Positions 19,954-57,959 of a stretch of DNA of 64,000 bases are shown piece after piece. Made by a program: the position numbers and the translations under genes. Under the pieces are notes generated by a model. It was not told the origin of the DNA and made no database searches. It saw only the letters and a program-made list of their open reading frames with translations. Source of the DNA: Salinilacihabitans rarus. Its GTDB lineage: Archaea > Halobacteriota > Halobacteria > Halobacteriales > Natrialbaceae. Every line of letters begins with the position of its first letter. Position 1 is the first letter of the stretch. Location of the stretch: the NCBI RefSeq assembly GCF_024296665.1, contig NZ_CP100762.1, forward strand, positions 1,860,001-1,924,000. Reading direction: 5' to 3'.

Positions 19954-21168
19954 TCAGTCGGCTTCCTCGCCCGTCTCGACCGTCTGGGACTGTGCCACCT
20001 CGACGTTCTGGTGCTGTTTCACCTCGGCGTCCTCGGGCGCGTCGGCCTCGACGGTCTGTGTCTGGCTCACCTCGACGGTCTGGATCTGCTCGACTTCGAG
20101 TTTCCCGTCTTTCTTCTCGTCGTCCGTCCCGTCGTCGCCCTTCTTGTCGTCTTTCTTCGGCTGGTCTTTCTTCGGGGCCCGGTCTTTCTTTTTCTCCTCG
20201 ACCTGTCGGTCCTTCTTCTCCTCGTCTTTCTTCTCCTCGACTTGCCGATCCTTCTTCTTCTCGTCCTTCTTCTCAGCCGTATCCTTCTTCTCGTCCTTGC
20301 GATCCTTCTGTTCGACTTGTCGGTCCTTCTTCTCAGCCGTATCCTTCTTCTCGTCCTTGCGATCCTTCTGTTCGACTTGCCGGTCTTCCTTCTCGTCTTT
20401 CCGCTCGACGGTCTTCTCGACCGCTTCGTCTTCTTTCTCGACTTTCCTGTCGCCGTCTTTCTTCTCCACTCGGTCGACCGTCTCTTTCGCGGGCTTCTCG
20501 GTCGTCTCGACGTCGATTTTCGTCTCCGTCACCACCTTCCGGTCGGGCTTCTCGACCTGCTTCGCGCCGTCGGCGGCGAAACACGCGCCGGCGAGCACGA
20601 GAACCTGCGCGTCCGCCTTCGTCGTCGCCGCTGACGTGACGACGGCCAGAGGAGCCGCGTCCGCGTCGGCCGCGCCGTCGATCGACCCCGACCACGCGTC
20701 GCCGCCGACGTCGAGGAACGTCACCGGGACGTCCGCGCCGCCGCCGTCGGCCGCTCCCGCGCCGCGGTCGAGCGACCGGGCGGTCGCGCCGTCGAAGACA
20801 CACTGGACCCGCTCCCCGTCGGCCTCCGCGGCGACGACGAGGTCCTGCACGCCGTCGCCGTCGACGTCGGCGAGGAGCCAGCCGTCGCCGACCTCGCCGT
20901 CGAGAGTCAGGTCGGCCCGCGAGGCGTCGAGGTCGCCGGCGTCCGACGGGCCGGTGAACAGGTGTATCGAGTCGACCTGCGTCGGCTCGACGTGGTCGAT
21001 CGGGACGTCGCGTTCGGCCGTCGAGTCGGCGTGGTCGGACGCCGCCGCGACGCCGGCGACGCCGACCGTCAGGCTGAGGGCCGTCAGTACGGTGACGAGG
21101 ACGGTCAGCCACGGCCGTCCGCGGTTCGACGTTCGATTCCCGCTCGGAGAATTCGCCGGTCGTATCAT
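19954..21168 (-). CDS. Secreted lysine/glutamate/aspartate-rich repeat protein, unknown
   Basis: 404 residues. An N-terminal signal peptide (WLTVLVTVLTALSLTVGVAG, ~20-40) is followed by AAASDHAD. Residues 95-115 contain ADVDGDGVQDLVVA, an FG-GAP/EF-hand-like calcium loop. Cys123 and Cys196 flank a predicted small domain. Residues ~203-355 are almost entirely K, E, D, R and Q, including two copies of a 20-residue unit (261-280 and 281-300, each holding DRQVEQKDRKDEKKDTAEK). The last 50 residues hold Q-x-Q-(T/N)-V-E motifs (IQTVEV, TQTVEA, HQNVEV, SQTVET). Such lysine density is very unusual for a haloarchaeon. No membrane anchor is visible. Function unknown. Confidence 0.72.
   Translation of the reverse strand: MIRPANSPSGNRTSNRGRPWLTVLVTVLTALSLTVGVAGVAAASDHADSTAERDVPIDHVEPTQVDSIHLFTGPSDAGDLDASRADLTLDGEVGDGWLLADVDGDGVQDLVVAAEADGERVQCVFDGATARSLDRGAGAADGGGADVPVTFLDVGGDAWSGSIDGAADADAAPLAVVTSAATTKADAQVLVLAGACFAADGAKQVEKPDRKVVTETKIDVETTEKPAKETVDRVEKKDGDRKVEKEDEAVEKTVERKDEKEDRQVEQKDRKDEKKDTAEKKDRQVEQKDRKDEKKDTAEKKDEKKKDRQVEEKKDEEKKDRQVEEKKKDRAPKKDQPKKDDKKGDDGTDDEKKDGKLEVEQIQTVEVSQTQTVEADAPEDAEVKQHQNVEVAQSQTVETGEEAD
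20265..20394. repeat. 60-bp tandem direct repeat in the lysine-rich secreted protein gene
   Basis: The 60-base blocks 20281-20340 and 20341-20400 are nearly identical over the first ~45 bases, and each is preceded by the same 16 bases (CCTTCTTCTCAGCCGT). The repeat encodes the 20-residue unit described for the gene. A 60-base unit keeps the frame, so copy number could vary. Confidence 0.85.
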
Positions 21169-25688: not shown

Positions 25689-26708
25689 ATGACGCGACCA
25701 GCCCGGGCCGATCGCGGCGCCGGACGGTACCGACGCTGTGACTACTGCGGCTACACGCTCCCGACCGAACCCCACCGGGGCGAGCGGGGGCTGTTCTGCT
25801 CGACGCACTGTCTCGAAGCCGGCGAACCGAACGAAGACGAGGGAAGCGACGAGGCCCCGGAGAGCGTCCTCGAACACGACGCCTACAAGCGCTTCGCCAC
25901 CGGCGTCGAGCCGCTCGACGCGCTCGCGCCGAACGGCCTCCCGGCGGACGCGCTGGTCTTGCTCTCCGGCGAGGAGGGGACCCGCCGGGCGGAGCTATCG
26001 ACCGAACTCGTCTGGCGCGCCCTCGAACGCGGGGAACGGGCCGTCCTCGTCGCCGCCGCCGACCCGCCGGTGGCCGCCCTCGAACGGTTCTTCGCGGCCG
26101 ACTGGAACGTCCTGCCGGCGCTGGAGGACGACCGGCTTCGCGTCCTCGACTGCTTCACCGGTCGACTCGACGACCGCGAGGGCTACCTCGCGAGCCGAAA
26201 CGAGTGGGGGCAGTTCGTGGCCGACGTCGCGGGCGACGGGATCGTCGAGGTGAGCGACCCCGACGACGGCCGCGAGGTGGCGGACGCGCTCGTCCGGACC
26301 CTCGACGACCTCGAGATGACCGAGACGGGGCTGGTCGCGGTCGACTCGCTCGACGCGCTGCTCCGCGACGGGTCGGTTCGCGACGTCCTCGCGGAGGTCC
26401 GCGCGACGGTCTGCAAGGCGCGGTACGTCCCGGTCGCCGCGGGCGCGACCGCCGGCGGCGACGCGGCGGCCCGCGTCGGCGAGTACGCGTTCGACGCGGT
26501 CGTCGACCTGCGGCTGACCGACCGCCTCGCGCCGGAGGCGCGGCTCAAACGCCTCGGGATCAGGAAGCTGACCGGCGCGAGCCACCGGCCCCGCTGGCTC
26601 GCCTACGAGTACGCGCCCGAGCGGGGGCTGTTCTCGTTCGACCCGGAGACGGAGACCGAGCGCGTCTACGACATCGTCGGCCCCGGCCGGCCCGTCGACG
26701 CCCGCTGA
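25689..26708 (+). CDS. RecA/RAD55-fold protein with N-terminal zinc finger and degenerate Walker A
   Basis: 339 residues. Residues 15-45 form a treble-clef-like zinc finger: CDYCGYTLP, then FCSTHCLEAG (CxxC...CxxxC). Residues ~65-339 follow the RAD55/KaiC-like RecA fold: FATGVEPLDALAPNGLP, a P-loop position that reads SGEEGTRRAEL instead of GxxGxGKT/S, and a Walker B-like TGLVAVDSLDALL near 215. The lysine and the following Thr/Ser of the P-loop are missing, so ATP hydrolysis is doubtful. Haloarchaea have such proteins annotated as RecA-like or DUF7125 (from memory). Role unknown, possibly regulatory. Confidence 0.8.
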   Translation: MTRPARADRGAGRYRRCDYCGYTLPTEPHRGERGLFCSTHCLEAGEPNEDEGSDEAPESVLEHDAYKRFATGVEPLDALAPNGLPADALVLLSGEEGTRRAELSTELVWRALERGERAVLVAAADPPVAALERFFAADWNVLPALEDDRLRVLDCFTGRLDDREGYLASRNEWGQFVADVAGDGIVEVSDPDDGREVADALVRTLDDLEMTETGLVAVDSLDALLRDGSVRDVLAEVRATVCKARYVPVAAGATAGGDAAARVGEYAFDAVVDLRLTDRLAPEARLKRLGIRKLTGASHRPRWLAYEYAPERGLFSFDPETETERVYDIVGPGRPVDAR

Positions 26709-26743
26709 CCGCCCGCCGGCGACCATGCAGGCCCACGCTCCGG

Positions 26744-26750
26744 TTTTATT
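26744..26750 (+). promoter_or_regulatory. Candidate TATA box for the RG-rich protein gene
   Basis: TTTTATT in an otherwise GC-rich gap of 115 bases. It would start transcription near 26775, giving a leader of about 50 bases that contains the pyrimidine/adenine run CCACCACACACCACC just before the ATG. That run has no Shine-Dalgarno sequence. Confidence 0.4.
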
Positions 26751-26823
26751 CCCGCGTCGGGCGTAGCCGTGACGCTGTAGCGGCGCCGAGCGACTGCTCC
26801 GACGTCGACCACCACACACCACC

Positions 26824-27900
26824 ATGAACGACCGACACGACAGCGACCGACGGGACCGAGACCGTCGGCACCGACGGGAGGCGGAGGGCGGAACGAACGA
26901 CCGCCACCGGGGCGGCCGCGACCGGCCCGAGGGCAAGCGCGGCTGGCTACACGGCCTGTTCGACCGCGGCGAGGACCGCGACGAGGGTCGCTCCGGCCGG
27001 CGGCGACGGGGCGGCGGCGAGTTCCACCGCGAGGAGACGCCCTACGGCCAGCCCGGCTGGAGCGAGCCACCGGACGAGCGCTACGAGCGAGAGCGGTGGC
27101 CGGAGGAGCAGCGAGGGGGCGAAGGCCCGTACGAGCGAGGCGGGTGGGAAAGCCACCGAGAGGAGCGAGCGGAGCGAGGCGGCGGAGGCGGCGACCACCG
27201 CGGCCGACGGGAGTACGAGGGTCGCGAGCGGGGGCGTGGCCAGCGGTCCCAGCAGGACCTCCGCTACGGCGGCGAGAGCCGGCGACGGGCGTCCGAGCGC
27301 GAGTCCGGGGGCCGCCGCGAGCGGGGCGGCGGCCGGTCGGGCCGACGCGAGGGGAGTCGCCGCGGCCGCCACGAGGACCGCGGCGAGGAGCGCCACGAGG
27401 GCCGTGACCGTGACCGCCGCGAGCGGCGGGCCGCCCGCGAGTTCGGCCAGGGGAGCCAGCAGCGACGCGCCGGCCGGCGGGCGGGCGGCGAGTTCGGTCA
27501 GGGCAGCCAGCAGCGGCGAGGCGACCGGCGCACCGACGAGCGCCGCGGCCGGGGCACCGACGAGTGGGGTCGCCGCGGCGACCGCGAGTTCGGCGAGGAC
27601 CGCGGCCGGACCGAGCGGCGGCCGGACCGCGACGTCGACGAGGGGCGCGGCCGGCGACGCGAGGGCGGACACGACATGCAGGGCGGCGGCTTCGACCGCT
27701 CGCGGTCGGCCCGCACCGGCCTCCAGTCCGAACGTCCGCGCGACGAGGGCGGCGACTGGGCCGAGGGCGAAAGCGAGAGCGAGGGCGGCCGCGCCGGACG
27801 CGGCGTCGGCGAGGGGCGCTCGCGCGACCGGGACCGGAACCGCGACGAGGACGTGAGCAACCGGCGCCACGTCCACGACCGGGACGAGGACCGGCAGTAG
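26824..27900 (+). CDS. Arginine/glycine/acid-rich intrinsically disordered protein
   Basis: 358 residues of extreme composition: Arg, Gly, Glu and Asp make up the great majority, with few hydrophobic residues. The N-terminus is a run of alternating charges (DRRDRDRRHRRE). One short hydrophobic patch, KRGWLHGLFDRGED (~38-51), stands out. RG/RGG-type pairs occur throughout, and EFGQGSQQRR occurs twice (~200-225). Codon choice (GAC, GAG, CGC, GGC) fits a real gene. The opposite strand also has a long open frame (26947-27876), but that is the expected shadow of this composition. RGG-rich proteins in other domains bind RNA or form condensates; any such role here is inference. Confidence 0.68.
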   Translation: MNDRHDSDRRDRDRRHRREAEGGTNDRHRGGRDRPEGKRGWLHGLFDRGEDRDEGRSGRRRRGGGEFHREETPYGQPGWSEPPDERYERERWPEEQRGGEGPYERGGWESHREERAERGGGGGDHRGRREYEGRERGRGQRSQQDLRYGGESRRRASERESGGRRERGGGRSGRREGSRRGRHEDRGEERHEGRDRDRRERRAAREFGQGSQQRRAGRRAGGEFGQGSQQRRGDRRTDERRGRGTDEWGRRGDREFGEDRGRTERRPDRDVDEGRGRRREGGHDMQGGGFDRSRSARTGLQSERPRDEGGDWAEGESESEGGRAGRGVGEGRSRDRDRNRDEDVSNRRHVHDRDEDRQ

Positions 27901-27956: not shown

Positions 27957-28391
27957 ATGAGCGACGGCGGCACCTACGTGCTCGCGATCGAACTCGCCGA
28001 AGACGCGACCGTCGAGGTCGGCGCGCTGGGCGAGCGCGCGTTCGCCCGCGGGACGTACGCCTACGTGGGGTCGGCGTTCGGCCCCGGCGGCTTCTCGCGC
28101 GTCGACAGGCACCGCGAACTCGCCCGCGGCGAGCGCGACGCGCGCCACTGGCACGTCGACTACCTGCTCGGCGCGCCCGAGGCGACGCTCGCGCACGCCG
28201 TCCTGTTCCCCGACGAGGACCGCGAGTGCGACCTCGCGGCGACGCTGCCCGGCGATCCAGTTCCGGACTTCGGCGCCTCCGACTGCGACTGCGAGGCGCA
28301 CCTGCTCGCCGCGCCCGGGACCGCGGCGCTGCTCGCGGCGCTGGAGGAGGTCGGCGGCCGGGTCGACGACTCGGTCGATCCGGTCGGCTAG
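27957..28391 (+). CDS. DUF123 / GIY-YIG-like domain protein
   Basis: 144 residues. The pattern GTYVLAIELAEDATVEVGAL, then FARGTYAYVGSAFGPGGFS, HWHVDYLL and ECDLAATLPG matches DUF123, a GIY-YIG-related domain common in archaea and sometimes fused to endonuclease III. The GTY...AYVG pair corresponds to the GIY and YIG elements. C-terminal ASDCDCEAHLL contributes two cysteines. Nuclease activity is unproven for this family. It follows the RG-rich gene by 56 bases. Confidence 0.85.
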   Translation: MSDGGTYVLAIELAEDATVEVGALGERAFARGTYAYVGSAFGPGGFSRVDRHRELARGERDARHWHVDYLLGAPEATLAHAVLFPDEDRECDLAATLPGDPVPDFGASDCDCEAHLLAAPGTAALLAALEEVGGRVDDSVDPVG

Positions 28392-57116: not shown

Positions 57117-57959
57117 ATGCCAGCGCACAACGATCGAACGCCACCCCCCAACGAATCGACCGATCGATCGGCGACCGACGCCCTCGACGAACTGCTCGCG
57201 GCGCTCAGATCCGACCAGGGCGGCGCGCGGACGACCGCGCTCCGCCGCGCGCTCGCCGACGAGACCGACCCTCCGGCGGAGCGGCTGGCCGACGTCGAGT
57301 CGACGCTCGACTCGCTGGCGGCGGACGTCGAGGCGCTCGAAGAGGCAATCGAGGACCTCGAATCGAACGACCGAGCGCTGGCGGTCGAGACCAGCGACCT
57401 CGGCGCCGACGTCGAGCGCGTCGCCGACCGGGTCGAGCGCGTCGAGGAGAAGACGGACGCCCTCCGGGACGAACTCGTCGCCACGCGCGACGCCGTCGGG
57501 GAGACGTCCGCGGCCGGGGCCGGGAACGACGAGGAACCGTCGGCGGACCCCGAGGAGTACAGCGACGACGTCCTCCGGCGGATGAAACACGTCGAGCGGA
57601 AACTGGATCGGCGGACCTCCTCGCTTGCGTCGGAGCTGTCGTCCGTCGAGGACCTCGAGGCGCGCATCGACGAACTCGAACGGGAACTGGACCAGCGGAC
57701 CGACGCGCTGGTGGCGGGGCTCGAAGACGTCGACGGGACGCTGGAGGAGGCGGTCCGGTACGTCCACGAGGACCTCTCCGACGAGATCGAGCGCCGCTCG
57801 CACACGCTCGAAGCCGCCGTCGAGGACCTCGAGGAGGAGCTGGGGTCGTCGATCGACGACCTGCGGGACGACGTCGACACGCTCGAGATGCACGCGGTCG
57901 ACTTCACCATGTGGCGCCGCTCCGTCGAGGAGACGCTGGAGGAGTCCGAGGACGGGTGA
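57117..57959 (+). CDS. Soluble coiled-coil protein, unknown
   Basis: 280 residues, nearly all helical heptads. Segments ~55-130 (for example LADVESTLDSLAADVEALEE, VERVADRVERVEEKTDALRD) and ~150-265 (LRRMKHVERKLDRRTSSLAS, EARIDELERELDQRTDALVA) are separated by a Gly/Pro/Asp-rich hinge (AGAGNDEEPSADPEEYSD). It ends MWRRSVEETLEESEDG. Strongly acidic, no membrane segment, no enzyme motif. Similar haloarchaeal proteins are scaffolds or unknown. The opposite strand has Ser/Arg-rich shadow frames. Confidence 0.75.
   Translation: MPAHNDRTPPPNESTDRSATDALDELLAALRSDQGGARTTALRRALADETDPPAERLADVESTLDSLAADVEALEEAIEDLESNDRALAVETSDLGADVERVADRVERVEEKTDALRDELVATRDAVGETSAAGAGNDEEPSADPEEYSDDVLRRMKHVERKLDRRTSSLASELSSVEDLEARIDELERELDQRTDALVAGLEDVDGTLEEAVRYVHEDLSDEIERRSHTLEAAVEDLEEELGSSIDDLRDDVDTLEMHAVDFTMWRRSVEETLEESEDG

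Follow-up and report, generated by a model that had tools for sequence, protein, structure and literature searches.

An arginine-rich, predicted disordered protein family of Natrialbaceae, with a candidate role as a cytoplasmic scaffold

Within the window, a stretch of 64,000 nucleotides of the Salinilacihabitans rarus genome, the ORF at 26824-27900 (+), which encodes 358 amino acids dominated by Arg, Gly, Glu and Asp, just as an earlier note on this DNA had stated, is by comparison with other genomes a real plus-strand gene with relatives and not an orphan. The family to which it belongs appears to be undescribed, specific to Natrialbaceae, fully disordered, basic, Arg-rich and nearly free of Lys; we refer to the protein as the IDP, for intrinsically disordered protein. 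The gene, its neighbours and its motifs are as follows:

25689..26708 (+): upstream neighbour, KaiC/RAD55-type ATPase (Pfam PF06745, E = 4e-14)
26726..26773 (+): conserved promoter, by family consensus, with an upstream CACGCTC box, a TTTTAT TATA-like element (26744-26749) and a downstream TCGG..TAG
26824..27900 (+): Arg-rich, predicted intrinsically disordered protein gene, 358 aa (from ORF, composition, C-terminal profile and AlphaFold2)
26824..26853 (+): motif 1, N-terminus MNDRHDSDRR (family MNDRYDSDRR)
26935..26976 (+): motif 2, KRGWLHGLFDRGED (family DRGWLHGLFSRGES)
27037..27099 (+): sub-clade motif TPYGQPGWSEPP..., common to L078, L095 and L108 (TPYGEPGWGQSP)
27250..27285 (+): motif 3, degenerate single copy QQDLRYGGESRR (family SGFETDAxxEANLEYGGEARH, 1-3 copies)
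27439..27519 (+): private repeat EFGQGSQQRRAGRRAGGEFGQGSQQRR, two copies, no family feature
27712..27777 (+): motif 6, RTGLQSERPRDEGGDWAEGESE (family SGGGLEYRQxGRRSEQGDWTE; alignment A1)
27844..27897 (+): motif 7, C-terminus DEDVSNRRHVHDRDEDRQ (family DDDMSNRRHVHERDPT; RRHV invariant in alignment A1)
27957..28391 (+): downstream neighbour, DUF123 protein (Pfam PF01986, E = 1.2e-31)

At ~79% GC, this region leaves several frames open, among them ORFs of 435 and 309 aa on the minus strand, and so the length and openness of the ORF are no proof of a gene. This openness is also what would speak for a chance ORF in DNA of very high GC content or for a gene on the minus strand, against which stand frame-specific conservation, in-frame indels, dN/dS values well below 1 and a retained promoter. 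Across 11 pairs of relatives dN/dS ranged from 0.18 to 0.37, and in nine close pairs, aligned as unconstrained nucleotide sequences, all 56 of 56 indels came in multiples of three and the 1255 substitutions fell 238, 316 and 701 times on codon positions 1, 2 and 3. The relatives are thus under purifying selection at the protein level. For a pairwise codon test the window gene lacks a sufficiently close relative, and its own status rests on homology, position and promoter. Its promoter fits the consensus CgAACgCACGCTC.Gg.TTTATcCgc.CGtTCGG..TAGc found ahead of 30 orthologs; when a regulon was sought in the same genome, the exact core preceded no other gene. Likewise, the C-terminal profile A1, which covers the block GGGLEY...GDWTE...SNRRHVHE, matched this gene (E = 3.1e-12) and nothing else in the genome. 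Taken at the family level, codon-level conservation and promoter already refute the spurious or minus-strand reading, to which we assign a negligible probability, and make a strong comparative case for translation of the 26824-27900 frame.

Single-sequence similarity searches with the window protein found no relatives, because composition filters and divergence masked them; instead, synteny via the downstream DUF123 gene exposed the orthologous slot in other genomes. The relatives, among them those of Natrinema (assigned to Natrialbaceae), Natrialba, Halopiger and Natronorubrum, are ORFs of low complexity, about 250 to 760 aa long, that occupy the same slot and share motifs with the window protein. 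Of the 125 Natrialbaceae genomes, 56 matched profile A1, spread over 17 of the family's 29 genera, and in an order-wide sample of 293 genomes all 29 matches lay in Natrialbaceae, with no family member outside it. Four out-of-family matches to a motif pattern in 392 genomes (L142-L145) were rejected as chance frames. Searches of Pfam, NCBIfam, PHROGs, PDB sequences, plasmids and viral contigs returned no family match, a weak Collagen hit in Pfam (E = 0.006, one of 21 members) being low-complexity noise, and no description of the family was found in the literature searched.

The gene order is G1PDH, NAD epimerase, KaiC-like ATPase, IDP, DUF123 and gltB, and the window gene sits in the same slot, between G1PDH/epimerase/KaiC and DUF123/gltB, as in its Natrialbaceae relatives. 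The KaiC-like ATPase itself carries an N-terminal cysteine-containing, treble-clef-like region with weak zf-FCS/VATC matches below cut-off. The recurrence of the order KaiC, IDP, DUF123 in many genomes would fit an IDP that serves as a dedicated accessory, a flexible tether of the adjacent KaiC-like ATPase or DUF123 protein. However, the IDP gene is kept without an upstream KaiC-like gene in L052, L063, L092 and L108 and with both neighbours gone in Natrialba (L188-L189), and the neighbours in turn persist without it, at most such loci 94-220 bp apart (compared with a spacing of 1254-3234 bp where it is present). These independent losses weaken any dependence on the KaiC-like neighbour, and we consider the tether reading highly improbable. 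Presence of the IDP gene requires at least 13 changes on a poorly resolved DUF123 tree, a pattern that suggests ancestral presence followed by repeated loss, though horizontal gain may explain some cases; because it is so often lost, the gene would be accessory and not essential. Remnants were seen between the KaiC-like and DUF123 genes at two loci: L083 retains the start MNDRYDS followed by a stop, and L087 has kept its initial codons (MNDR) and, beyond an internal deletion, a vestige of the C-terminal tail. At L069 (575-823, -) an 83-aa form keeps the N-terminus, GDWTE and the SNRRHVH tail, lacks the whole middle and is acidic (pI 5.5).

Along the protein, conserved short motifs (RGWLHGLF, LEYGGEAR, GGGLEY...GDWTE, SNRRHVHE) are linked by fast-evolving R/G/D/E/Q linkers. 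The window protein carries RGWLHGLF exactly, together with DLRYGGESRR, TGLQ...GGDWAEG and VSNRRHVHDRD. The motif list of the relatives also includes GRHQRSEG, and in it DRGWLHGLFSRG follows the N-terminal MNDRYDSDRR. Tail conservation in the set of 40 relatives is partly circular, as the set was selected by an RRH[VS][HN] tail; motifs 2 and 3 were no selection criteria and were found in 27 and 35 of the 40, respectively. The KRGWLHGLF patch (residues 38-46), which the earlier note had taken for a single hydrophobic patch, is present and conserved, with RGW[LVF][HRQ]G in 27 of the 40 full-length relatives, but belongs to a set of at least five short conserved motifs. That note had named a lack of orthologs and translation of the minus-strand frame as findings that would count against it; both fail, since patch-bearing orthologs exist and the plus-strand gene is real. 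The two EFGQGSQQRR copies that it pointed out are there as well, starting at residues 206 and 223 and exact at the protein level (26 of 30 bases identical), but are essentially private to this genome. Of the family repeat SGFETDAxxEANLEYGGEARH, only the degenerate copy remains in the window protein, its FETDA half missing. Motifs 2 and 7 are unique in the genome, where the motif 2 pattern had no second occurrence; the motif 3 pattern gave one unrelated match there and missed the gene itself owing to an AGC serine.

The protein consists of 27.4% Arg, 20.1% Gly, 14.2% Glu and 9.8% Asp, with 99 Lys and Arg residues (a single Lys among them) against 86 Asp and Glu, giving a modest net charge of +13, a pI of 10.9 and a GRAVY of -2.38, and it has no hydrophobic segments. 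Its composition is indeed unlike that of any neighbour, as had been claimed, the median pI of the 43 window genes (by crude calling) being 4.5, with one of the 43 above 9. Among the relatives 37 of 40 have a pI above 8, the exceptions being L110 and two short forms with internal deletions, and the ratio K/(K+R), taken over 38 relatives, is 0.008 compared to 0.196 in the window genes. Two other window proteins stand out. A 404-aa protein (19957-21168, -) has an N-terminus that is hydrophobic and signal-like, and its long repetitive Lys/Glu/Asp-rich tract (KKDRQVEQKDRKDEKKDTAEKKD...) accounts for the marked AT skew at 20-21 kb; its Lys-richness contrasts with the Arg-only IDP. The other is a strongly acidic, predicted coiled-coil protein of 280 aa (57117-57959, +).

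AlphaFold2 gave no confident structure, with a mean pLDDT of 45.7 for the window protein alone and 41.9 for a Natrinema relative modelled with 21 sequences, and in neither did any residue reach 70, so that the near-complete disorder proposed earlier is upheld by prediction. The description as RG/RGG-rich fared less well: scattered RG and RGG are present, but not above what composition predicts (20 RG observed vs 19.6 expected, 6 RGG vs 4.0 +/- 1.7), although most relatives show mild RG enrichment. DR, on the other hand, is enriched about twofold (20 vs 9.7 +/- 2.5 expected). Because the window protein shows no RGG enrichment, the label 'RGG protein' is too narrow, and an Arg-enriched mixed-charge protein is the better analogy. 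The IDP resembles such domains in its disorder, in its interspersed R and D/E (R 27%, D+E 24%) with well-mixed charges, more evenly so than in shuffles for 38 of 38 relatives (asymmetry z = -1.8 in the window protein), in its enriched DR dipeptides and in its use of Arg over Lys. It differs in lacking sequence homology to them, in its 20% Gly and, across the family, often 15-25% Gln, in its conserved short motifs, in its molar-KCl cytoplasm and in being a whole protein instead of a tail on a folded domain. With RGG/RG-rich RNA-binding proteins of the FUS, LAF-1 and fibrillarin type it shares high Arg and Gly and scattered RG/RGG; unlike them, it shows no RG/RGG enrichment, has no attached RNA-binding fold and contains many acidic residues.

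Our leading interpretation, held tentatively, is that the IDP is an accessory cytoplasmic, Arg-driven scaffold; it would bind RNA or another polyanion and may condense in multi-molar KCl. Such a concentration would screen simple charge attraction, while stacking of Arg guanidinium groups and Arg-aromatic contacts would persist; the long R/G/D/E(Q) linkers would then act as a multivalent cohesive chain that self-associates and holds polyanions, most likely RNA. The RGWLHGLF, LEYGGEAR, GGGLEY...GDWTE and SNRRHVHE elements would serve as docking sites that recruit specific partners, for which their near-invariance argues, and the whole could be an accessory scaffold for an RNP or a condensate. 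Cytoplasmic location and partner docking, like RNA binding and condensation, are parts that we infer, the latter two being plausible from the conserved basic charge and Arg-only cations. Polyanion binding is likelier than membrane insertion, since hydrophobic segments are lacking. Protamine, which is Arg-rich, phase-separates again above ~3 M NaCl, as polylysine does not, and by itself does so at 2.75 M KCl or NaCl via Arg-Arg contacts (PMC9705477), so an Arg-only chain may be well placed to assemble in a cytoplasm rich in KCl. On the other side, R/D peptides that alternate evenly did not phase-separate in vitro while blocky ones did (PMC9324279), which counts against condensation because the charges of the IDP family are well mixed; the lack of an RNA-binding domain and of RGG enrichment in the window protein and a net charge of only +13 over 358 residues also weigh against the scaffold. 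A bolder version, in which the IDP is a dedicated condensate scaffold tuned to the salt-in archaeal cytoplasm and forms a salt-responsive membraneless compartment with motif-recruited clients, Arg having been kept and Lys removed by selection because no contacts other than Arg-Arg and Arg-aromatic ones withstand multi-molar KCl, strikes us as distinctly unlikely.

A useful comparison for the scaffold is the C-terminal scaffold of RNase E in bacterial degradosomes, which is disordered and carries short motifs for docking partners as well as Arg-rich segments that bind RNA. The IDP is similar, by analogy, in its disorder, Arg-rich stretches and short motifs, but has neither a catalytic domain nor homology to it.

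Ranked next after the scaffold, though unlikely, is a protectant akin to hydrophilins or LEA proteins, which would protect macromolecules when cells dry out, become trapped in salt crystals or undergo osmotic shock, and would do so with no specific partner. Hydrophilins are defined by more than 6% Gly and strong hydrophilicity; the IDP, with 20.1% Gly, a GRAVY of -2.38 and fully predicted disorder, falls within this definition, its linkers drift freely in length and sequence, and its patchy retention fits a conditional role. However, a pure hydration role needs neither near-invariant RRHV, RGWLHG and LEYGGEAR nor selection for Arg over Lys, and the IDP departs from these proteins in being basic and Arg-rich, with no LEA family match in Pfam for the window protein or 21 members.

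Haloarchaea follow a salt-in strategy with acidic proteomes. The proteins that are not acidified there belong for the most part to the ribosome, bind DNA or sit in membranes, and for unannotated proteins of high pI a DNA-binding or membrane role has been suggested (PMC4230888). That the exceptions are of these kinds also lends weight to the leading scaffold reading. The suggestion for unannotated proteins, together with the high pI and the nearly all-Arg cations, would favour a nucleoid or DNA-binding, protamine-like protein; yet 24% acidic residues almost balance the Arg, unlike in protamine, and Pfam searches found no DNA-binding domain, making this reading quite improbable.

Arg-rich mixed-charge disordered proteins are already known from eukaryotes; new here are their occurrence in this lineage, the set of motifs and the high-salt setting. 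Basic proteins are avoided by salt-in archaea. A conserved, basic, Arg-only and by prediction fully disordered protein in cultured haloarchaea (Natrinema, Natrialba, Natronorubrum and Halopiger) offers a concrete test case for whether assembly inside cells at high salt is driven by arginine chemistry, and its conserved motifs provide a handle for finding partners.
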